Positions 2,914 through 50,245 of a stretch of DNA of 55,616 nt are shown here, piece after piece. A program made the translations under genes and the position numbers. The notes beneath the pieces were generated by a model, which had not been told where the DNA came from, ran no database searches, and was given only the letters and a program-made list of their open reading frames with translations. Numbering within the stretch: position 1 is the stretch's first letter; the number at the start of each line of letters is the position of its first letter. Source of the stretch: a virus; the IMG/VR virus record IMGVR_UViG_3300028045_000018, positions 1 through 55,616 of that record. One strand, 5' to 3'.

Positions 2914-3081
2914 GGGCGGGTAGCATAACAGGCAATGCAATCGACTTAGGCCAAAAGCTCAATTTGGCAGAGCAAATGGTTCTTACCCATAAGGATGCAG
3001 GTTCGATCCCTGCTTGGCCTAGTGGTTTTTTTAAACCGTAGCTTAATCGATAGATTGTGGGTTCGAATCCCACTTCGCCCA
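2914..3081 (+). tRNA. tRNA-Lys(UUU), interrupted in the anticodon loop by a 95-nt insert
   Basis: The 5' part (2914-2947) has acceptor GGGCGGG, D-arm GCAT/ATGC, anticodon 5' stem ATCGA and loop start CTT. The 3' part (3043-3081) has loop end TTAA, stem TCGAT, T-arm GTGGG-TTCGAAT-CCCAC, acceptor TTCGCCC and discriminator A. Joined, they give exactly 73 nt with every stem paired (two G-T pairs in the acceptor) and the loop CTTTTAA typical of tRNA-Lys(UUU). The interruption (2948-3042) lies between positions 34 and 35 and contains a complete second tRNA-Lys plus a 21-nt linker with a GGTTT/AAACC hairpin. The insert is far too small for a group I or II intron. Confidence 0.8.
2948..3021 (+). tRNA. 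tRNA-Lys(CUU), nested inside tRNA-Lys(UUU)
   Basis: A complete cloverleaf: acceptor AGGCCAA/TTGGCCT, D-arm GCTC/GAGC, anticodon loop TTCTTAC, T-arm GCAGG-TTCGATC-CCTGC, discriminator A. Its first base is exactly the first base of the insert, so RNase P maturation of this tRNA would itself create the 3' end of the outer tRNA's 5' half. Confidence 0.88.
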
Positions 3082-3124
3082 GTCTAGGAGTATTGTTTAA
3101 TTTATATGTTTTGATTTGTAAGTA

Positions 3125-3804: not shown

Positions 3805-4007
3805 AAATGATAATGCGAAGACCAATAACGTGGAAGAACGATGGAAAGATGTCTTATTCATCAGGAGGAGGTACACTTAGAGATATGTGGCTCCAACCAT
3901 TAAAATATTCTGTTAGCACTTTTAATACAGATAGATATATAAGTTTTGAATATTCATTTTGTTTTAGTTGCAATATTTCTACAAGCAATTTTAACAATAA
4001 TGGCTAA
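3801..4007 (+). CDS. Small MKMIMR-family protein, 68 aa
   Basis: Starts MKMIMRRPITWKNDG at ATG 3801, which overlaps the TGA of the previous gene. I preferred it to a longer upstream frame because the first 18 nt match those of 3622 and 14568 almost exactly. The body is Ser, Phe and Asn rich. No family is recognised. It converges on the minus-strand gene ending at 4009. Confidence 0.55.
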   Translation: MKMIMRRPITWKNDGKMSYSSGGGTLRDMWLQPLKYSVSTFNTDRYISFEYSFCFSCNISTSNFNNNG

Positions 4008-4008
4008 A

Positions 4009-4371
4009 TTATTTAAGCGTTAGCAGATATTCTAATTTGTTAATTTCTGCTATAATTTCATCTCTGATATTCAATAGATCAGTATCTTTTTCATCTATGA
4101 TATCTGCGAAATCATTTGCAAGAGCATCACCTAGTTCAGAGAATATGCTTTCTGGGTTATCTGAGACATCTTTTAGTTCGATTGTATTTTCATCGTCTAG
4201 ATAGATTCTATCATATTTACCTTGATAACATTCTACGAGTAAGTCAATTAAAGGCGTTAGAGCGTCATAGAAGTTACCGAAAGCTATATGTTGGGCATAA
4301 CTTTTTGTTTGCCAGTGAAGTATTCTTGTTTGGTCTTGCGTCTTTAACAGTAGAAGTAGAATGTTTTTCAT
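4009..4371 (-). CDS. Ferritin-like helical phage protein (DUF5856-like), 120 aa
   Basis: Contains TRILHWQTKSYAQHIAFGNFY followed by LIDLLVECYQGKYD. The pattern HWQT...HxAxGxFYD...D..VExYQGKY is typical of a phage family I remember as DUF5856, with a Dps/ferritin-like helical look, though metal-site function is not established. I placed the start at ATG 4371 (MKNILLLLLKTQ) because AAAGGA lies 9-14 nt before it; an upstream ATG adds eight residues without a better site. It is on the minus strand, convergent with the small-gene trio. Confidence 0.6.
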   Translation of the reverse strand: MKNILLLLLKTQDQTRILHWQTKSYAQHIAFGNFYDALTPLIDLLVECYQGKYDRIYLDDENTIELKDVSDNPESIFSELGDALANDFADIIDEKDTDLLNIRDEIIAEINKLEYLLTLK

Positions 4372-4456
4372 TATATTAGTTCCTTTGTGAGTCACAATTA
4401 TATTATTGTATATTTATGCGATTTCCTTTAATCTTATTTGGGTTAGAAGTTTTATT

Positions 4457-4479
4457 TGTGATATATAATATGGTATAAT
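4457..4479 (+). promoter_or_regulatory. Promoter, TGTG-N13-TATAAT class
   Basis: TGTG 4457-4460, 13 nt, TATAAT 4474-4479, with TGG just before the hexamer (extended -10). It drives 4518 and probably both sigma-factor genes. Confidence 0.8.
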
Positions 4480-4517
4480 GTTTTTGGAAGATTAACTATA
4501 AATTACGAGGTAGAAAA

Positions 4518-5042
4518 ATGAGTTTAAAAATAATCGTAGTAGACAGCCATAATACACAAGAGTATAATTTTGATGAATGTGGTGATGCCATCGATGGTGT
4601 AGAGTCAACCGTATATTCTGGTGATTCTATTCTTTCTATTATTGAAGATCCGAATACTCCAGCAGGAGTTGTGGAAGAGCTTTTAGAAAGTCTTACATCT
4701 AATGGTTGGATAAACATTGAAGACATTAAAGATAGAGAGGATAGGATCAAAGCTCTTAAAGAATATTTGATGGTTGATCGTTATCAAAGAGTTTATCACA
4801 CTAACATTGACAAGCCCACTCTTAGTGTTATAAGGGATTTGGCTACAGGTGAAGGTTTCCTTGTACAGAAAATTAGCAATGAGCATTTAACTGGCAAGGC
4901 AAAAGAACGACTTGACAAAGAGATCGAGAAGAATAAAAAACTTGTTGCTGCGAATAAGAAAGCATTAGCAACTAGAAAAAAGAATAAAAAAGCAAAAGAT
5001 ATAGAGAAGGCTAAAAAGGTTCTTAAAGACGCGGGCCTATAA
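4518..5042 (+). CDS. Hypothetical protein with Lys-rich C-terminal coil, 174 aa
   Basis: An acidic N-terminal half (IIVVDSHNTQEYNFDE...) and a C-terminal ~50 residues dominated by Lys, Ala and Glu (KNKKLVAANKKALATRKKNK), probably a long basic helix. It is first in a transcript with two sigma factors, and its stop overlaps their first ATG (TAATG). The basic tail could contact nucleic acid. This is inference from composition, and no family is recognised. Confidence 0.65.
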   Translation: MSLKIIVVDSHNTQEYNFDECGDAIDGVESTVYSGDSILSIIEDPNTPAGVVEELLESLTSNGWINIEDIKDREDRIKALKEYLMVDRYQRVYHTNIDKPTLSVIRDLATGEGFLVQKISNEHLTGKAKERLDKEIEKNKKLVAANKKALATRKKNKKAKDIEKAKKVLKDAGL

Positions 5043-5647
5043 TGGAAACCACACAAACAGAGATAGATTGGATTGGAATCATTAATTACATTGCTAGTTC
5101 TATGAGTGATAGATATAGATTCTTGTCAGAAGATGATGTAAGAAGTGCAGCGAATGAAGGCTGTCTGCTTGCAGCCAGAGGATTCGATCCTAACAAAGGG
5201 CAAAATATAACTAAACATATCAAAATCAAAGGCTATTTCAAAACGATTGATATATTGAGGAGAGAGAAATGGCTCAATAGGCCGGGAAAAACGCACTACG
5301 AAATAAAAACATATAACGAATTTCACGAAAGAGAACTAGTAGACGGACTTAAAACAACCGTAGAACATATCAACTTGGACGAGACTTGCATACAATCGAA
5401 AAGCTATGAAAACTTTGATAATTTTTGGTTTGAATTGACGGATGGTTTAGGAGCGTTTTACACAAAAGTTCTTTATCTGAGATACATAGAAAATAGAACC
5501 ATATTCGAGATGATGGAGATAATGGAGACTACTAATAAGTATATTAAACAATACATTTATGATGCGAGAAAAAGGTTATGTAGGTTGCATGGTCTCAGTG
5601 AGGACGAATTACAACTGACAACGCGCACTACATCTAGAGTACGTTAA
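5042..5647 (+). CDS. Phage sigma-70-family factor (first of pair), 201 aa
   Basis: Sigma region 2 pattern at about residues 25-80: SAANEGCLLAARGFDPNKGQ, then IDILRREKW, the region 2.3-2.4 position that melts the -10. A region 4-like C-terminal part (about 140-190) has LYLRYIENRT...MMEIMETTNKYIKQY...ARKRL, a divergent helix-turn-helix. Factors of this type replace or redirect the host sigma at phage promoters. It shares a transcript with a paralogue 1 nt downstream, both starting with a similar ...IDWxxIxNxI stretch. It could serve the TGTG/TATAAT promoters or a later class. Which is unknown. Confidence 0.75.
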   Translation: METTQTEIDWIGIINYIASSMSDRYRFLSEDDVRSAANEGCLLAARGFDPNKGQNITKHIKIKGYFKTIDILRREKWLNRPGKTHYEIKTYNEFHERELVDGLKTTVEHINLDETCIQSKSYENFDNFWFELTDGLGAFYTKVLYLRYIENRTIFEMMEIMETTNKYIKQYIYDARKRLCRLHGLSEDELQLTTRTTSRVR

Positions 5648-12885: not shown

Positions 12886-13938
12886 ATGTCTATTTTAATT
12901 GTAAAAGTTTGTAAAATCAAAGAAGTCAAACCATTAACGAATGCCGACAAATTAGAGCTTTGTGTGGTAAACGGATGGCAATGTGTAATTCCTAAAGGGA
13001 AATATCAAACGAATGATTTGATCGTTTATTTCCCTCCTGATACTGCACTCCCAGAGACAGTAACAGACGAGATGGGGGTCTCAAATTATTGTCAAAGAAC
13101 AGATCAAGGAATGCGTATTCGTCAAGTTAGACTTCGTGGAGAACCTTCTTTCGGATTGATCGTTGATCTTCCAGACAACGTTGATTGGAAAGAAGGAGAT
13201 GCTGTTGACGAGCATTACGATGCTAAGAAATATGAGCCTCCCGTTAAAGGTCATGGTGGAGACATTCTTGGAACCAATCATGCTTTGTTTGACAAGTTCA
13301 CTGATATCCAAAATCTTCGAAACTTCGTTGATGTTTTCGAGGACGGAGAGGATATCGTTGCCACTGAGAAGTTGCATGGAACACAAGTTAGAGGTTGCAT
13401 GATCCAAGATGAGAGCGAGGGAGAGTTACTTTTCTTCGGCTCTAAACAGCATCCTCGTAAAAGACCTGAGACTGATACAGAAATGAAGTCTCATTTGTAT
13501 TGGCTCCCTTATAGCTATCAAAGCGTAAAGGATATGTTTGAAGGTCTTAAAAAAGATCACAAAGTTATCGAGATTTACGGCGAGACATATGGAAGAGTTC
13601 AGTCTCTTAGATACGGTATCAATGGACTTGCTTTTCGTTGTTTTGGTTTAAAGCTTGATGGAAGATATGTTGACTTTGATGATAGAGTCAGCATTTGTGA
13701 GAAGTATGGCGTTCCAATGGTTCCTGTGCTTTACAGAGGACCGTACAGCCTCGAAAAGATCAAAGAGGTTAGCGAAGGTAACACTACAGTCGCTGATATC
13801 GATCAGATTCGAGAAGGAACGGTTGTACAACCTGTCAAAGAGCGAACTCATCCTTCTATTGGAAGGTGTATCTTAAAATATGTGTCTGATACATATCTGA
13901 TGGGCAAACATGCAGAAAGGGACACTACCGATGCTTGA
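12886..13938 (+). CDS. RNA ligase, DraRnl (Rnl5)-like, 350 aa
   Basis: An N-terminal OB-like domain (about 1-110) precedes a nucleotidyltransferase core. Motif I is EKLHGT (Lys162, the adenylated residue), EIYGE near 229-233 fits motif III, REGTVV (309-314) is motif IV, and ILKYVSDTYL (Lys331) is motif V. The OB-first layout matches the Deinococcus DRB0094 family, which seals 3'-OH/5'-phosphate RNA breaks, preferably in duplex context. KptA lies 840 nt downstream and two tRNA genes in this genome have anticodon-loop inserts, so repair or joining of tRNA halves is the natural hypothesis. It is not proven by sequence. Confidence 0.85.
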   Translation: MSILIVKVCKIKEVKPLTNADKLELCVVNGWQCVIPKGKYQTNDLIVYFPPDTALPETVTDEMGVSNYCQRTDQGMRIRQVRLRGEPSFGLIVDLPDNVDWKEGDAVDEHYDAKKYEPPVKGHGGDILGTNHALFDKFTDIQNLRNFVDVFEDGEDIVATEKLHGTQVRGCMIQDESEGELLFFGSKQHPRKRPETDTEMKSHLYWLPYSYQSVKDMFEGLKKDHKVIEIYGETYGRVQSLRYGINGLAFRCFGLKLDGRYVDFDDRVSICEKYGVPMVPVLYRGPYSLEKIKEVSEGNTTVADIDQIREGTVVQPVKERTHPSIGRCILKYVSDTYLMGKHAERDTTDA

Positions 13939-14567: not shown

Positions 14568-14774
14568 ATGAAAATGATAATGAGAATAAACGCTCTTGCA
14601 GTCATAAAGTCTTTTAAAAATGTAACTCCCATATCTAGCTGTTGGAACGAAAAAAAATATAGTCCTCATTCTGTCATAAATAATTGGGTAAATACTCATT
14701 CTTCGTGTCGTTTTTGGTGGGACAATAATTCTCTAACCAGGCTTGCAACATATCATTCTATATGTTTTAAATAA
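14568..14774 (+). CDS. Small MKMIMR-family protein, 68 aa
   Basis: Begins MKMIMRINALAVIK, and its first 18 nt are identical to those of the gene at 3622, 11 kb away. The rest (Ser, Asn and Trp rich, CRFWWDNNS) differs. It sits between the methyltransferase and KptA, its TAA ending 1 nt before the KptA ATG. No family is recognised. Confidence 0.55.
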   Translation: MKMIMRINALAVIKSFKNVTPISSCWNEKKYSPHSVINNWVNTHSSCRFWWDNNSLTRLATYHSICFK

Positions 14775-14775
14775 A

Positions 14776-15576
14776 ATGGATATAATTAAAAAAAGTAAAT
14801 TTCTAAGTCTAATTTTAAGACATAAACCAGAAACAGTCGATCTTACATTGGACTCTGCTGGTTGGGCAAGAGTTAGTGAGGTTCTTGTTAAATGCAATAT
14901 GTCTATGTTGGATCTTGAAGTTGTAGTTGAGCAAAATAACAAAAAGAGATTTGAGTTTAATGAGGATAGAACTAAGATAAGGGCATCTCAAGGACATAGT
15001 GTTGATGTAGATTTAGAATATACTCCTACGTTACCACCTGAACATCTTTTTCATGGAACTTCGAATAAAGCTATTTTTGAGATATTGATGAATGGCATAA
15101 AGAAAATGCAACGCAATCATGTTCATTTATCAGCAGAAAAACAAACAGCCATTGAGGTAGGAAGACGTAAAGGTAATCCATTCGTTTTAGTTATTGACGC
15201 ACAAAGAATGTATTTAGATGGTCATAGATTCTTTTTGTCAACTAATGGTGTATGGTTGACTGAATTTGTTCCTAAACAATATCTCCATGACGTAGACATG
15301 AAACAGTATTATCATGATGTTCATTGTAATGTGACAAGACACGAACCTATGGGTTGTGAAGGATGCTCTTGTTATATGACACAAAAATTAAATTCTGCCC
15401 AAACTAAAATTGCGGAACTACAAGCTCGTTTAGATAAAACAAAAGATTATTGGGTAAAACGTGAAGCAGACTCTACTTGGTTGTGTAAATGTGGAGTGAG
15501 AATAACTAGTGAAATAAACTATTGCCTGGAATGTTCAAGTATAAGATCCCACGATGCAAAGAAAGAGGAAGAATAA
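14776..15576 (+). CDS. kptA: RNA 2'-phosphotransferase (Tpt1/KptA) with C-terminal zinc ribbon
   Basis: 266 aa. Tpt1/KptA signatures in order: LRHKPE (Arg15-His16), IRASQGHS (Arg69, the classic motif), HGT (93-95), VHLS, a GRRKG catalytic Arg and NGVWLT..VP (157-166). Tpt1 uses NAD+ to remove a 2'-phosphate, normally the mark left by tRNA ligation, giving ADP-ribose 1'',2''-cyclic phosphate and nicotinamide. Typical length is ~180-220 aa; here ~60 extra residues end in CKCGVRITSEINYCLEC, a likely zinc ribbon for RNA contact. The RNA ligase is nearby. Bacterial KptA can also ADP-ribosylate RNA ends, an alternative role. Confidence 0.9.
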   Translation: MDIIKKSKFLSLILRHKPETVDLTLDSAGWARVSEVLVKCNMSMLDLEVVVEQNNKKRFEFNEDRTKIRASQGHSVDVDLEYTPTLPPEHLFHGTSNKAIFEILMNGIKKMQRNHVHLSAEKQTAIEVGRRKGNPFVLVIDAQRMYLDGHRFFLSTNGVWLTEFVPKQYLHDVDMKQYYHDVHCNVTRHEPMGCEGCSCYMTQKLNSAQTKIAELQARLDKTKDYWVKREADSTWLCKCGVRITSEINYCLECSSIRSHDAKKEEE

Positions 15577-16235
15577 TGCTTTACGCCTGTGCAGATTTAC
15601 ATTTTTCACATGAAAACATAATAAAATATTGTAATCGTTTTTTCTGTCTAACAGATTTAGAACGAGATACTATTTTATCTATTAAAGAGCGATGCCCTAA
15701 CGACAACAGAGCAGTAAGAGAGTTTAAAATCTCTCAAGAGTCTGTTGACAAGATGGATGATACTATTGTAGACAGAATTAATGCAGTTGTGAATCCTAAT
15801 GATACATTCTATATTCTTGGTGATTTTTGTTTTGCTAGGAAAGATTTTAGTATAGTAAAAAAATATAGAGACAGAATTAATTGTAAACATATTCATTTCA
15901 TCAAAGGTAATCATGATTATTTTAGTGACAGAGAATATAGAACGATATTCGAGTCTGTAGATCATTACAAAGAGGTCAATTTTAATAAGACTAAATTTGT
16001 GATGAGTCACTGGCCTATGGTCACTTGGAATAACTCTTTCCGAGGTTCTATTATGTTGCATGGTCATTGTCATTCAATGATAAACGATTGGAAAGACAAG
16101 CATATGCCTGGTTTACCTTTGATCGATGTTGGTTTCGATGAATGGGATGGACCTGTGTCGTTTGAATATATCATAGATGAAGCAAATAGGCTAAAAACTA
16201 CTGTTGCAGAGATTAAATATCCAGACATGCCTTGA
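15576..16235 (+). CDS. Calcineurin-like metallophosphoesterase, 219 aa
   Basis: All metallophosphatase motifs are visible: ADLHFSH (DxH), ILGDFCF (GD), IKGNHDY (GNHD), MSHWP (H) and LHGHCH (GHxH). The ATG overlaps the KptA stop (TAATG), so it is translationally coupled to KptA. Relatives act on cyclic nucleotides, nucleotide phosphates and RNA ends. Coupled to KptA it might handle a cyclic phosphate on RNA or on ADP-ribose. This is inference, as many phage proteins of this type have unknown substrates. Confidence 0.85.
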   Translation: MLYACADLHFSHENIIKYCNRFFCLTDLERDTILSIKERCPNDNRAVREFKISQESVDKMDDTIVDRINAVVNPNDTFYILGDFCFARKDFSIVKKYRDRINCKHIHFIKGNHDYFSDREYRTIFESVDHYKEVNFNKTKFVMSHWPMVTWNNSFRGSIMLHGHCHSMINDWKDKHMPGLPLIDVGFDEWDGPVSFEYIIDEANRLKTTVAEIKYPDMP

Positions 16236-16245
16236 AAGGATTCTA

Positions 16246-16908
16246 ATGGACCGAACAATAGAACACAAAAAGAAATATGGAATATATGAATTAAATGCAT
16301 CTTTAGATGGAAAGAAGCTGTTTGATGAGACTAACAGTTACAACAAGGCTTTGAGTATATGTGAAGAACGACATAATGATTTTGTGTGTGGTCTTGATGG
16401 AACTAATGATAGTATAGGATATATATGTGTTATAGATCGTGATGGTAATATTATAGGGAATAAGAAAGTTCGTAAAATTATCAGGAATTTCTATCCTAAA
16501 ACAGATTATCATTTTCTGTCTAACTTTTTTGAATGCGATTTTAAATTCATGGGAGTTACGTATAAAACTTGCGAACATTACTTCCAAGCTGCTAAAGCGA
16601 CTAACGAAAAAAATGCTCAAAAGATAATAGACGCTAAAACTCCAGCAGATGCGAAGTCTTTAGGCAGAAAAATCGTAATTAGAAAAGATTGGGAAGATAT
16701 CAAAATTGACGTAATGAGATTTGCGTTGAGACTTAAATTCCAAGATAAAGTTTTAAAAGAATTACTTTTAGAAACTGGTGATGCTGAGCTAGAAGAAGGT
16801 AATCATTGGCAGGATTTGTATTGGGGTGTAAACGAATCTAGATATGGTGAAAACTGGCTTGGCAAATTATTGATGGAACTCAGAGAAAACATAAAAGATT
16901 GGGAGTAA
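16246..16908 (+). CDS. NADAR (YbiA-like) domain protein, 220 aa
   Basis: The C-terminal ~150 residues match the NADAR family: FLSNFFECDF, YKTCEHYFQAAKA, AKSLGRK and RKDWEDIKIDVM, then a YWGVNESRYGENWLGKLLM tail. The N-terminal ~70 residues are a separate small domain. NADAR enzymes are N-glycosidases or ADP-ribosyl hydrolases, and some remove ADP-ribose from guanine in DNA and so counter DarT-type toxins. Next to the NAD-using KptA it fits an ADP-ribose theme. AAAGGA lies 6 nt ahead of ATG 16246. Confidence 0.88.
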   Translation: MDRTIEHKKKYGIYELNASLDGKKLFDETNSYNKALSICEERHNDFVCGLDGTNDSIGYICVIDRDGNIIGNKKVRKIIRNFYPKTDYHFLSNFFECDFKFMGVTYKTCEHYFQAAKATNEKNAQKIIDAKTPADAKSLGRKIVIRKDWEDIKIDVMRFALRLKFQDKVLKELLLETGDAELEEGNHWQDLYWGVNESRYGENWLGKLLMELRENIKDWE

Positions 16909-18242: not shown

Positions 18243-18320
18243 ATGAGTAAGAAAATTAGTGGAACATTAGAGTTAGCTGCCTCTCTAAAGGAAACTTTAG
18301 AGAATCTCGCAAGAGATTAA
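18243..18320 (+). CDS. Possible micro-protein, 25 aa
   Basis: MSKKISGTLELAASLKETL... with AAAGGA 9 nt upstream of the ATG. One amphipathic helix. Real translation is plausible but unproven. Confidence 0.4.
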   Translation: MSKKISGTLELAASLKETLENLARD

Positions 18321-18390
18321 GTTGACCAGACCACTGACAGGAGATTAAAAGTTGTTAGTAAACGATAAGAAAGAAATTAGAAACGAAAGT

Positions 18391-18510
18391 ATGACGCACC
18401 AGTACTTTCCTCTTTGGTTACAGATTAAACAGTTCTGTGAGGTAGGAACAGTGTTTGTAGCGTTAAACCTTTTATTATCAGGTCGAGGTGAAGGCGAATT
18501 CTGCGATTGA
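18391..18510 (+). CDS. Possible small protein, 39 aa
   Basis: MTHQYFPLWLQIKQFCEVGT followed by a hydrophobic VFVALNLLLS. Weak ribosome site (GAAAG). Its TGA overlaps the TTG start of the next frame, which would suit translational coupling. Confidence 0.4.
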   Translation: MTHQYFPLWLQIKQFCEVGTVFVALNLLLSGRGEGEFCD

Positions 18511-44335: not shown

Positions 44336-44610
44336 TGGTTGGAAAGTCAACTACCCTAAAGGAAGGGCTTGAACCGTGAGGTTCGAGAGTAATTAGTTGA
44401 TTAGTGAGCTTAATTAAGGAATTAGTTATGCAGCAGTTACAATCAAAGTTAAAGAACGCACCAAGGAATGCCTCCCTAGTTCCTTGCTCTGTAAATTCTT
44501 CATTAAACAAAGATCAAAGTCTTAGTGTGGAGAATAAAGTACTGAATTGTAACAATCACGAAGGGAATCTACCTCAACGTAAAGAGGGAAAGAACTTGAG
44601 AGTCTCTTTC
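44336..44610 (+). ncRNA. HEARO / omega RNA of the IscB element
   Basis: The region between tRNA-Tyr and the IscB start has no SD-linked gene and is rich in short stems: GGTTGG..., ACTACCCTAAAGGAAGGGCT, GAACC-gtga-GGTTC, AAGGAA...TTCCTT. HEARO RNAs sit directly 5' of iscB and guide the nuclease. The guide would come from the 5' flank, here the 3' end of tRNA-Tyr and the bases after it. The boundaries are approximate. Confidence 0.65.
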
Positions 44611-45813
44611 ATGGTTTACGTATTAAATTTACGAGGAGAACCTTTGATGCCATGTTCTCCGCAGAAAGCTAAGAAATTGATTAAGGAGAATTTAGCGTGT
44701 GTAGTTAGAAGAAGTCCATTTACGATTCAGTTGAAATATGCGACTGGAGAGAATAAACAGGAAGTAACATTAGGAATAGATTCTGGAGCAAAGAATATAG
44801 GTTTTAGTGCAGTTTCGAAAGAAAAAGAATTAATAAGCGGAACTGTAGTTCTTGATGATAAAATGAAATCAAGACTAGCAGATAGAAAAATGTATCGCAG
44901 AAGTAAAAGAGGCAAATTGTGGTACAGGAAACCCAGATGGAAAAATAGAGTTTCTACTAAGAAGAAAGGTTGGCTTCCACCTTCTATTTTAAGGAAATAT
45001 TTCACTCATTTAACTCTTATTAATAAAATTAAACATCTTCTTCCTATTACTAAAGTAGTAGTAGAAGTAGGAAATTTTGACATACAAAAGATTAAGAATC
45101 CTGATATTTCTGGTAAAGAGTATCAAGAAGGTGATTTATTAGGTTATAATAATGTTAAATCTTATATTTTTGCAAGAGAAAATTATATTTGTCAACTTTG
45201 TAAGAAATCAGTTATTGGAGATAAGACTAATTTACATCATATTATTCCTAAACCTGAAGGAACCGACAAAGCAGACAACTTGGCTTTATTACACAAGAAG
45301 TGCCACAAAAAACTACATGAACAAGGTTTAGAAAGTAAACTGAAGAAAAGTAAACAATATAAAGAAGCAACGTTTATGAATATTGTTAAGAATAAGTTTC
45401 AAGAAGATTTAGATTGTAAACTTGTTTTTGGTTATGAAACGTTTACTAAGAGAAATGAACTAGGAATAGGAAAATCACATATTAACGATGCTTTTGTAAT
45501 TTCAGGTGGAGAAAAACAAGAAAGAACATTACCTTTTGAAGCAACACAAAAACGTAAAAACAATAGATGTTTACAAAAAAATAGAAAAGGATTTAAACGT
45601 TCTGTTCGTAAGCAAAGATATGCTATTCAACCTAAAGACCTAGTTAAGATAGAAGGTAAGTTTTTTGAAGTCAAAGGTATATTTAGTTATGGAAAACAGA
45701 TTAGATTAGTTAATAAGGTAGGAAAAATTGTTAATAAATCAGTTAAAAAAGTGAATTGGGTTTTTCATAATAAAACGTTAATATGGAACGTAACTGTGAA
45801 TCGAAGAAAGTAA
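44611..45813 (+). CDS. iscB: IscB RNA-guided nuclease (OMEGA family)
   Basis: 400 aa from ATG 44611. PLMP domain at the start (VYVLNLRGEPLMPCSP), RuvC-I GIDSGAKNIGF (Asp57), Arg-rich bridge helix (RRSKRGKLWYRKPRWKNR), RuvC-II VVVEVGNFD (Glu152), HNH with CQLC, LHHIIPK (209-214) and HKKCHKKLH, and RuvC-III GKSHINDAF (His290, Asp293). All catalytic residues are present, so it should be active. The frame stays open upstream to 44404, but that part overlaps the guide RNA and resembles no IscB sequence. It lies inside a tRNA array, a typical mobile-element site. Confidence 0.93.
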   Translation: MVYVLNLRGEPLMPCSPQKAKKLIKENLACVVRRSPFTIQLKYATGENKQEVTLGIDSGAKNIGFSAVSKEKELISGTVVLDDKMKSRLADRKMYRRSKRGKLWYRKPRWKNRVSTKKKGWLPPSILRKYFTHLTLINKIKHLLPITKVVVEVGNFDIQKIKNPDISGKEYQEGDLLGYNNVKSYIFARENYICQLCKKSVIGDKTNLHHIIPKPEGTDKADNLALLHKKCHKKLHEQGLESKLKKSKQYKEATFMNIVKNKFQEDLDCKLVFGYETFTKRNELGIGKSHINDAFVISGGEKQERTLPFEATQKRKNNRCLQKNRKGFKRSVRKQRYAIQPKDLVKIEGKFFEVKGIFSYGKQIRLVNKVGKIVNKSVKKVNWVFHNKTLIWNVTVNRRK

Positions 45814-46352: not shown

Positions 46353-46355
46353 TCT

Positions 46356-46431
46356 GGTCCTGTAGGCTAACTAGGCATGTGCCGCCAAACTTAAAACTTG
46401 GTGTTTGAGAGTTCGAATCTCTCCGGGACTA
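46356..46431 (+). tRNA. tRNA with anticodon UAA (Leu) but short variable loop
   Basis: Acceptor GGTCCTG/CGGGACT, anticodon stem CCAAA/CTTGG (one A-C mismatch at 31-39) with loop CTTAAAA, 5-nt variable loop, T-arm GAGAG-TTCGAAT-CTCTC, discriminator A. It also lacks the Leu-type long arm. A second UUA-reading tRNA is interrupted at 47049. Confidence 0.8.
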
Positions 46432-46522
46432 TTTACACGCCGCAGTAACCCAATGGCATGAGGTGACTAAATAGAGGTATTGTTTGAGCAACATAGAATA
46501 GTAGGTATAAGGAGATAATATT

Positions 46523-47014
46523 ATGCCTACTTGTAAAAAATGTAATCAAAAATATCCATGTTGGGTTGAAATAGATGGGAAACAAAGAAACTTAGGAACT
46601 AGAAAATTCTGTCTTGACTGTTCCCCTTTTGGAAGTCATAATACAAGAGATCTTACTATTCCTAAAAAAGACAAAAAGCAAAGAAATTTAAGAACTTTTA
46701 CTTGTAAAATTTGCAAAAAAGAAAAGACAGCATATAACACTGGATATACATGCAATACTTGTAGAGCCTCTAAGAAGCGAAAAGACAATAAACTAAAAGC
46801 TTTAGAGTTCATGGGAGGGAGTAAATGTTCTAAATGTGGATACGATAAATGTCATTTTGCTTTAGATTTTCATCATATTGATGAGGATAAAAAGAAATTT
46901 ACTCTATCTGCACATTGGAATTATTCATGGCAAAAGCTTCTTCCAGAGATAAAAAAATGTGTTGTTCTTTGTAGAAATTGTCATGCAGAATTACATGCTG
47001 GATTAGCTTTATAA
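46523..47014 (+). CDS. HNH endonuclease with N-terminal zinc fingers, 163 aa
   Basis: CKKCNQKYPCWVEIDGK and CKICKKEKTAYNTGYTCNTC form zinc knuckles; the C-terminus has CSKCGYDKCHFALDFHHIDE, then KKCVVLCRNCHAELHAGL, the phage HNH homing-nuclease core. It lies within the tRNA array between tRNA(UAA) and the interrupted tRNA-Leu. It may have mobilised tRNAs or inserts at this locus. AAGGAG lies 9-14 nt upstream of the ATG. Confidence 0.88.
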   Translation: MPTCKKCNQKYPCWVEIDGKQRNLGTRKFCLDCSPFGSHNTRDLTIPKKDKKQRNLRTFTCKICKKEKTAYNTGYTCNTCRASKKRKDNKLKALEFMGGSKCSKCGYDKCHFALDFHHIDEDKKKFTLSAHWNYSWQKLLPEIKKCVVLCRNCHAELHAGLAL

Positions 47015-47048: not shown

Positions 47049-47171
47049 ATCCGGGTGATGGAAAGGAAGACATGGCAGATTTAATGGATTCTTGCAGTAT
47101 GTACCTGATAACGAGAATCCCTTAATCTGTTGCTCTTAACGAGCGTGTGGGTTCGAATCCCACTCCGGATA
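47049..47171 (+). tRNA. tRNA-Leu(UAA), interrupted in the anticodon loop by a 39-nt insert
   Basis: Acceptor ATCCGGG/TCCGGAT, TG, D-stem ATG/CAT with a GGAAGA loop, G26, anticodon stem GCAGA/TCTGT (G-T at 27-43), long variable arm TGCTC..GAGCG, T-arm GTGGG-TTCGAAT-CCCAC, discriminator A. Between the stem halves are 46 nt instead of 7. Removing 47085-47123 leaves loop TTTAAAA (anticodon UAA) and an 84-nt class II tRNA. The insert folds on itself (GGATTC/GAATCC). An alternative joint, TTT|TTAA, would give anticodon UUU, but the long arm argues for Leu. Confidence 0.75.
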
Positions 47172-50161: not shown

Positions 50162-50167
50162 TGTTCT

Positions 50168-50240
50168 GCGTCCGTAGTTGAGGGATTTAACGGCAAATTC
50201 TAAATTTGTGACTACGTGGGTTTGAATCCCACCGGACGCG
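50168..50240 (+). tRNA. tRNA-Sup(CUA), amber suppressor
   Basis: Acceptor GCGTCCG/CGGACGC (7 pairs), D-stem GTTG/TAAC, anticodon stem GCAAA/TTTGT with loop TTCTAAA (anticodon CUA at 50200-50202), T-arm GTGGG-TTTGAAT-CCCAC, discriminator G. It reads UAG. G73 is compatible with Gln (also Ser, Asp, Asn), so the inserted amino acid is uncertain. The T-loop has T in place of the usual C56. Confidence 0.9.
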
Positions 50241-50245
50241 ATTCG

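Follow-up and report, generated by a model that had tools for sequence, protein, structure and literature searches.

A tRNA gene nested in the anticodon loop of another

We found that, in an uncultured phage, the anticodon loop of one lysine transfer RNA (tRNA) gene contains another, complete lysine tRNA gene, and that related arrangements are present in unrelated phages. The stretch of DNA analysed here, called the window, comprises positions 1 to 55,616 of IMG/VR virus record IMGVR_UViG_3300028045_000018 (55,616 base pairs, 34% G+C), with the nested pair on its plus strand at 2914-3081. The anatomy of this pair is solid and is confirmed by the analyses described below, and we consider it somewhat probable that the outer tRNA is functional once spliced.

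The outer tRNA-Lys(UUU) consists of a 5′ half that covers tRNA positions 1-34 (2914-2947; GGGCGGGTAGCATAACAGGCAATGCAATCGACTT) and a 3′ half that covers positions 35-73 (3043-3081; TTAATCGATAGATTGTGGGTTCGAATCCCACTTCGCCCA), with an insert of 95 nucleotides (nt) between positions 34 and 35. The insert opens with the complete inner tRNA-Lys(CUU) (2948-3021; 60.8 bits to the Rfam tRNA family), whose first nucleotide (+1) adjoins outer position 34, and continues with a linker of 21 nt (3022-3042; GTGGTTTTTTTAAACCGTAGC) that contains a GGTTT/AAACC hairpin and has no CCA. When joined, the two halves give a 73-nt tRNA-Lys(UUU) with the anticodon loop CTTTTAA and all stems paired: acceptor 7 of 7 (5 Watson-Crick and 2 G-U), D 4 of 4, anticodon 5 of 5 and T 5 of 5. 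ARAGORN identifies the joined halves as tRNA-Lys(ttt) and, in intron mode, reports the unspliced DNA as a single tRNA with a 95-nt insert. A first-pass annotation of the sequence had described two halves joining to a fully paired 73-nt cloverleaf, with all coordinates correct; its placement of the insert at 34/35, beginning at +1 of an intact tRNA-Lys(CUU), is borne out by ARAGORN and by the Rfam match.

The junction between outer tRNA and insert is fixed and cannot slide, because the bases on its two sides differ. Furthermore, the match between the halves is rarely reached by chance, as 1 of 200,000 random window sites matches the 3′ half at all 12 acceptor and anticodon-stem positions. A stable hairpin, somewhat tRNA-like and without a T arm, lies just 5′ of the pair at 2838-2892.

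The insert was also compared with familiar classes of intron. A search of the window against Rfam 15 with E values up to 1 gave zero group I or group II matches, and a group I or II intron was rejected. Neither the unconstrained nor the constrained predicted folds contain the bulge-helix-bulge formed by exon and intron at splice sites. No EndA-type splicing endonuclease was seen among the window proteins scanned, although no dedicated search was made and the record is probably a fragment.

Nested, split and permuted tRNA genes in other phages

The nested arrangement is not a lone oddity and occurs in unrelated phages. Pattern scans of IMG/VR, aimed at T arms with abnormally short spacing or at a complete tRNA joined directly to a 5′ half, returned many loci, in which matching halves were then found by a strict cloverleaf search; the loci and contigs compared with the window carry L-numbers as labels. 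The raw spacing from AGAGC to the next tRNA was swamped by unrelated upstream sequence, and only matches with a real D arm were used. The survey yields no frequency, since the scans picked loci for such spacing. A perfect nested partner within 160 nt was found on 16 contig strands, some of them near-identical so that the independent cases number roughly a dozen, against a mean of 0.05 when partners were swapped between loci. Halves exchanged among 11 disrupted phage tRNAs formed on average 5.2 of the 12 pairs across the break and never more than 9, while every true pair formed all 12. In a scan of bacterial genomes, the matches were mostly due to chance or to partial duplications.

In most of the inserts that we examined, one boundary or both coincide with a tRNA processing site; a second insert of the window, in a tRNA-Leu described below, is an exception. 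A complete tRNA starts with its +1 directly after outer position 34 in the window, in L051/L238 and in L127/L171, and after position 36 in L179; the 34/35 break, which the first-pass annotation had proposed to look for in other phages, is present in both L051/L238 and L127/L171. In L051/L238, L127/L171 and L179, in L254, L303, L312 and L319, and in the permuted L130/L172, the 5′ half runs directly into the +1 of a tRNA or tRNA-like element, the 3′ half matches and the joined loop is canonical. In six contigs (L179, L238, L254, L303, L312 and L319) the insert runs exactly from the inner +1 to the CCA and leaves a canonical loop once removed, and shuffled inserts of these six scored as well in at most 16 of 2,000 trials each.

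In the clear cases the outer and inner tRNAs differ from phage to phage. In L051/L238 an outer tRNA-Arg(UCU) encloses a tRNA-Phe at 34/35, and the two contigs differ by one base in 3 kilobases (kb), which turns CCA into CCC. In L179 an outer tRNA-Lys(UUU) is broken at 36/37 by a tRNA-Asn, and in L254, L303, L312 and L319 an outer tRNA-Lys or tRNA-Gln holds tRNA-like inserts of 44-91 nt. In L127/L171 (records of 370 and 494 kb) a tRNA-Thr(UGU), which in L171 spans 4146-5355 of the minus strand, is split at 34/35 by 1,137 nt. Within this stretch lie a tRNA-Lys(UUU) and a gene for a PDDEXK_5 endonuclease (E 5e-23); in L171 it is possibly a mobile element. In L130/L172 (259 kb) a tRNA-Asn(GUU) is circularly permuted, with the 3′ half, a short linker and the 5′ half in that order (L172:7277-7361; G003:C1 about 162277-162361); its T35 abuts the 3′ end of a tRNA-Lys(CUU) and its G34 abuts the +1 of a tRNA-Arg(CCG).

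As the carriers are mostly metagenome contigs, the junctions could in principle be assembly or chimera artefacts. This we regard as extremely unlikely, because the same junctions are found in separate contigs (L051/L238, L127/L128, L231/L242/L283 and L182/L240) and arrangements of the same kind are present in Lak phage genomes curated to completion (PMC6784885).

Further loci were noted beside these. In L231 and its close relatives L242/L283 the outer tRNA is unchanged and the inner one differs mainly in the anticodon arm (His GUG versus Asn GUU); the register of the joined loop of L231 is ambiguous. The phage of L051/L238, like that of L225, also has tRNA halves 480-489 nt apart, with no group I match at the Rfam gathering score. 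L113 has tRNAs for Tyr, Thr and Lys (2928-3095, 3871-4022 and 5005-5158), each with an insert of 79-84 nt at 36/37 made up of a 5′ hairpin and a minimal tRNA-like helix whose end reads C, followed by AA. Seven loci (L095, L097, L031, L028, L026, L104 and L109) have two T-arm hairpins inside one acceptor stem of tRNA-like genes and probably hold more tRNA-like inserts. Tentative permuted candidates, some with mismatches, are L284 (minus strand, 2540-2770), L182, L220, L229 and L336; L284 shows two acceptor mismatches and may hold two such genes in tandem. Two loci were left out as clean cases, L019 for its ambiguous loop and L258 for an extra base in the T stem.

A possible splicing route through ordinary tRNA processing

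If the outer tRNA-Lys(UUU) is indeed spliced, one transcript would carry both the outer and the inner tRNA. RNase P, in maturing the inner tRNA-Lys(CUU) at its 5′ end, would leave outer positions 1-34 with a free 3′-OH; the boundary at 2947/2948 agrees with the first-pass proposal that this cut would define precisely where the outer 5′ half stops. The 3′ half would gain a 5′-phosphate from a second cut, which would follow the inner CCA in the six relatives and the hairpin linker here. The outer acceptor stem would keep the two halves together while an RNA ligase, probably the phage's own, would seal position 34 to position 35, giving a tRNA that could be used in translation. RNase P and tRNase Z leave 3′-OH and 5′-phosphate ends, and ATP-dependent RNA ligases of this class join them. 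Apart from the interrupted gene, the record has no other for Lys(UUU), and lysine codons in 40 open reading frames (ORFs) of the window are mostly AAA (851, versus 240 AAG); both points count in favour of a functional outer tRNA. Extended to the other phages, the same route would be tRNA splicing without a dedicated endonuclease, in which anticodon-loop inserts, permutations and splits framed by tRNAs or tRNA-like elements are cut by RNase P and 3′-end processing and sealed by phage ligases, a generalization that we put forward tentatively, as plausible but short of probable.

A candidate joining enzyme is encoded in the window. This RNA ligase (12886-13938), with an OB-fold and a nucleotidyltransferase domain, has the Naegleria gruberi RNA ligase as its closest solved relative (E 1e-16). 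It would belong to an RNA-repair cassette, also on the plus strand, with an RNA 2′-phosphotransferase (Tpt1/KptA; 14743-15576; E 1.5e-50 to a solved tRNA 2′-phosphotransferase), a calcineurin-like phosphoesterase (15522-16235) and a NADAR-domain protein (16204-16908).

Such a cassette would also fit a reading in which the transcript is cut and not rejoined, so that the halves serve as fragments, for example as decoys for anticodon nucleases, or the arrangement merely couples expression of the inner tRNA. Some anticodon nucleases, colicin E5 among them, cleave tRNAs at 34/35. We nevertheless judge this reading very unlikely, since the long-range pairing of acceptor and anticodon stems would not be needed for it, yet is perfect.

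Several observations weigh against a spliced, functional outer tRNA. The weakest step is the removal of the window linker: the insert starts at the inner +1 but does not end at the inner discriminator or CCA, extending 21 nt past the inner tRNA to a 3042/3043 boundary with no recognised processing site, and we know of no enzyme that would make such a 3′ cut downstream of a hairpin. The predicted fold that contains both cloverleaves is slightly worse than the unconstrained one (-53.8 versus -57.1 kcal/mol). DNA searches, an exact 23-mer and two window proteins used as queries returned no homologue that carries the window locus, and conservation of the locus itself is without a relative to show it. 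In L126 and L259 the 5′ half is present and no 3′ half was found, and some such fusions may therefore be debris. Furthermore, RNA ligases are present in 15 of 17 comparison contigs of large tRNA-rich phages, and several carriers of broken tRNAs, though mostly fragments, show none. With ligases near-universal in such phages, the window ligase is permissive evidence only, and a specific association between RNA ligases and broken tRNAs was dropped.

The linker without a known removal signal and the orphan 5′ halves of L126 and L259 fit an outer tRNA that is dead, its halves being a recent pseudogene left when a tRNA was copied into the anticodon loop by recombination or by endonuclease-driven insertion. 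Endonuclease genes do occur in or near the loci, among them the PDDEXK_5 gene in the L171 insert and an HNH gene of the window at 46523-47014. This reading is possible, though we find it doubtful: all eleven outer tRNAs tested retain 12 of 12 pairs across the break, the exact boundaries from +1 to CCA leave canonical loops, and the outer tRNA stays constant in L231 and L242 while the inner anticodon has changed. Taken together, these results support part of the first-pass interpretation, namely the nested structure and the match between the RNase P site and the outer 5′ half; by that interpretation one transcript may also yield two lysine tRNAs through ligation of the halves.

As for the origin of nested genes, U34 is present in the majority of the clear outer tRNAs (Lys, Gln, Arg and Thr). 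This, together with the nuclease site at 34/35, suggests, speculatively, that the nested genes arose by misjoining of cleaved tRNAs.

A second interrupted tRNA and other features of the window

When the window was scanned for T arms outside predicted tRNAs, two strong ones were left, that of the outer tRNA-Lys and one at 47147. The latter belongs to an interrupted tRNA-Leu(UAA) on the plus strand, with its 5′ part at 47049-47084, a 39-nt insert at 36/37 of the anticodon loop (47085-47123) and its 3′ part at 47124-47171. The insert contains a 9-bp hairpin and no recognised tRNA-like core, and once it is removed ARAGORN reports Leu(taa). An earlier assignment of the 47049 tRNA as Ser with a 19-nt insert was displaced by this cloverleaf. 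The HNH endonuclease gene mentioned above (46523-47014, plus strand) lies directly upstream, and a second, intact Leu(UAA) gene is present at 46355-46432.

Among other features, the window has two HEARO RNAs (18272-18498 and 44346-44572), the second overlapping the start of an IsrB-like RRXRR and HNH gene (44404-45813) just after a tRNA-Tyr. A tRNA with a CUA anticodon, of the amber suppressor type, lies at 50167-50241, yet TAG ends 6 of 40 ORFs checked. A protein of 1090 amino acids encoded at 33076-36348 matches methyltransferase, HldE-like and glycosyltransferase sequences.

Comparison with known systems

Genes of this kind recur across many phages, and their boundaries coincide with the RNase P site and the CCA end, which offers a direct and cheap way to test how the introns are removed. 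Under this hypothesis, bacterial viruses would splice tRNAs with housekeeping enzymes and an RNA-repair ligase, giving these ligases a second role. It would also illustrate a way for tRNA genes that are split or permuted to originate and persist, and working phage tRNAs would then be escaping current tRNA finders.

Group I introns of bacterial and phage tRNA genes also break the anticodon loop, and PDDEXK homing endonucleases can be encoded in them. The phage loci share the anticodon-loop break and, in L171, a PDDEXK gene, whereas the window insert is just 95 nt long and matches neither group I nor group II.

Algae and archaea likewise have circularly permuted and split tRNA genes, which are broken and need their halves rejoined; the permuted L172 and the L171 gene split by 1.1 kb form one set with the nested phage tRNAs. 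In the cellular cases cited here, the ends are cut by a splicing endonuclease at bulge-helix-bulge motifs (PMC3978253, PMC4090602); the phage boundaries coincide instead with the ends of neighbouring tRNAs.

The RNA ligase, KptA/Tpt1, phosphoesterase and NADAR set of the window resembles the RNA-repair sets of jumbo phages, which the sections consulted describe as mending tRNAs cut by the host (PMC7824862, PMC9503650). What these sections propose is repair of cleaved tRNAs and not the splicing of interrupted phage tRNA genes.

The closest likeness is to the Lak megaphages. In the literature searched, from which subscription papers and preprints were outside the search, we found no description of nested, split or permuted phage tRNA genes beyond the Lak paper. 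Devoto et al. (2019) reported small tRNA introns in these phages, termed them enigmatic and noted that a tRNA may be encoded by the intron of tRNA-Thr(TGT) (PMC6784885); the first-pass statement that phage tRNA introns are only of group I or II does not hold against this report. Comparing the Lak sequences, we found the same tRNA-Thr with a 114-nt insert at 36/37 in Lak-A1 and without it in Lak-C1, the A1 exons being equal to the intact C1 gene, while the window locus has no relative found to supply such an insert-free allele. As in Lak, the window has a small insert, not of group I, that breaks the anticodon loop of a phage tRNA with no other irregularity, and this insert holds a tRNA or tRNA-like element, here the tRNA-Lys(CUU). 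By eye, the Lak and L113 inserts have a hairpin first on the 5′ side and a 3′ boundary after an acceptor-like helix plus one base of the tRNA-like element. The Lak insert lies at 36/37, is flush on the 3′ side and has about 30 nt before the tRNA-like element, whereas the window Lys insert lies at 34/35 and opens flush with a standard tRNA on the 5′ side, which is followed by 21 nt; in the window, the 36/37 position is matched only by the Leu insert. Collectively, these comparisons place the window locus as a variant of the Lak kind, to which the rule that boundaries fall at tRNA processing sites is a new addition.
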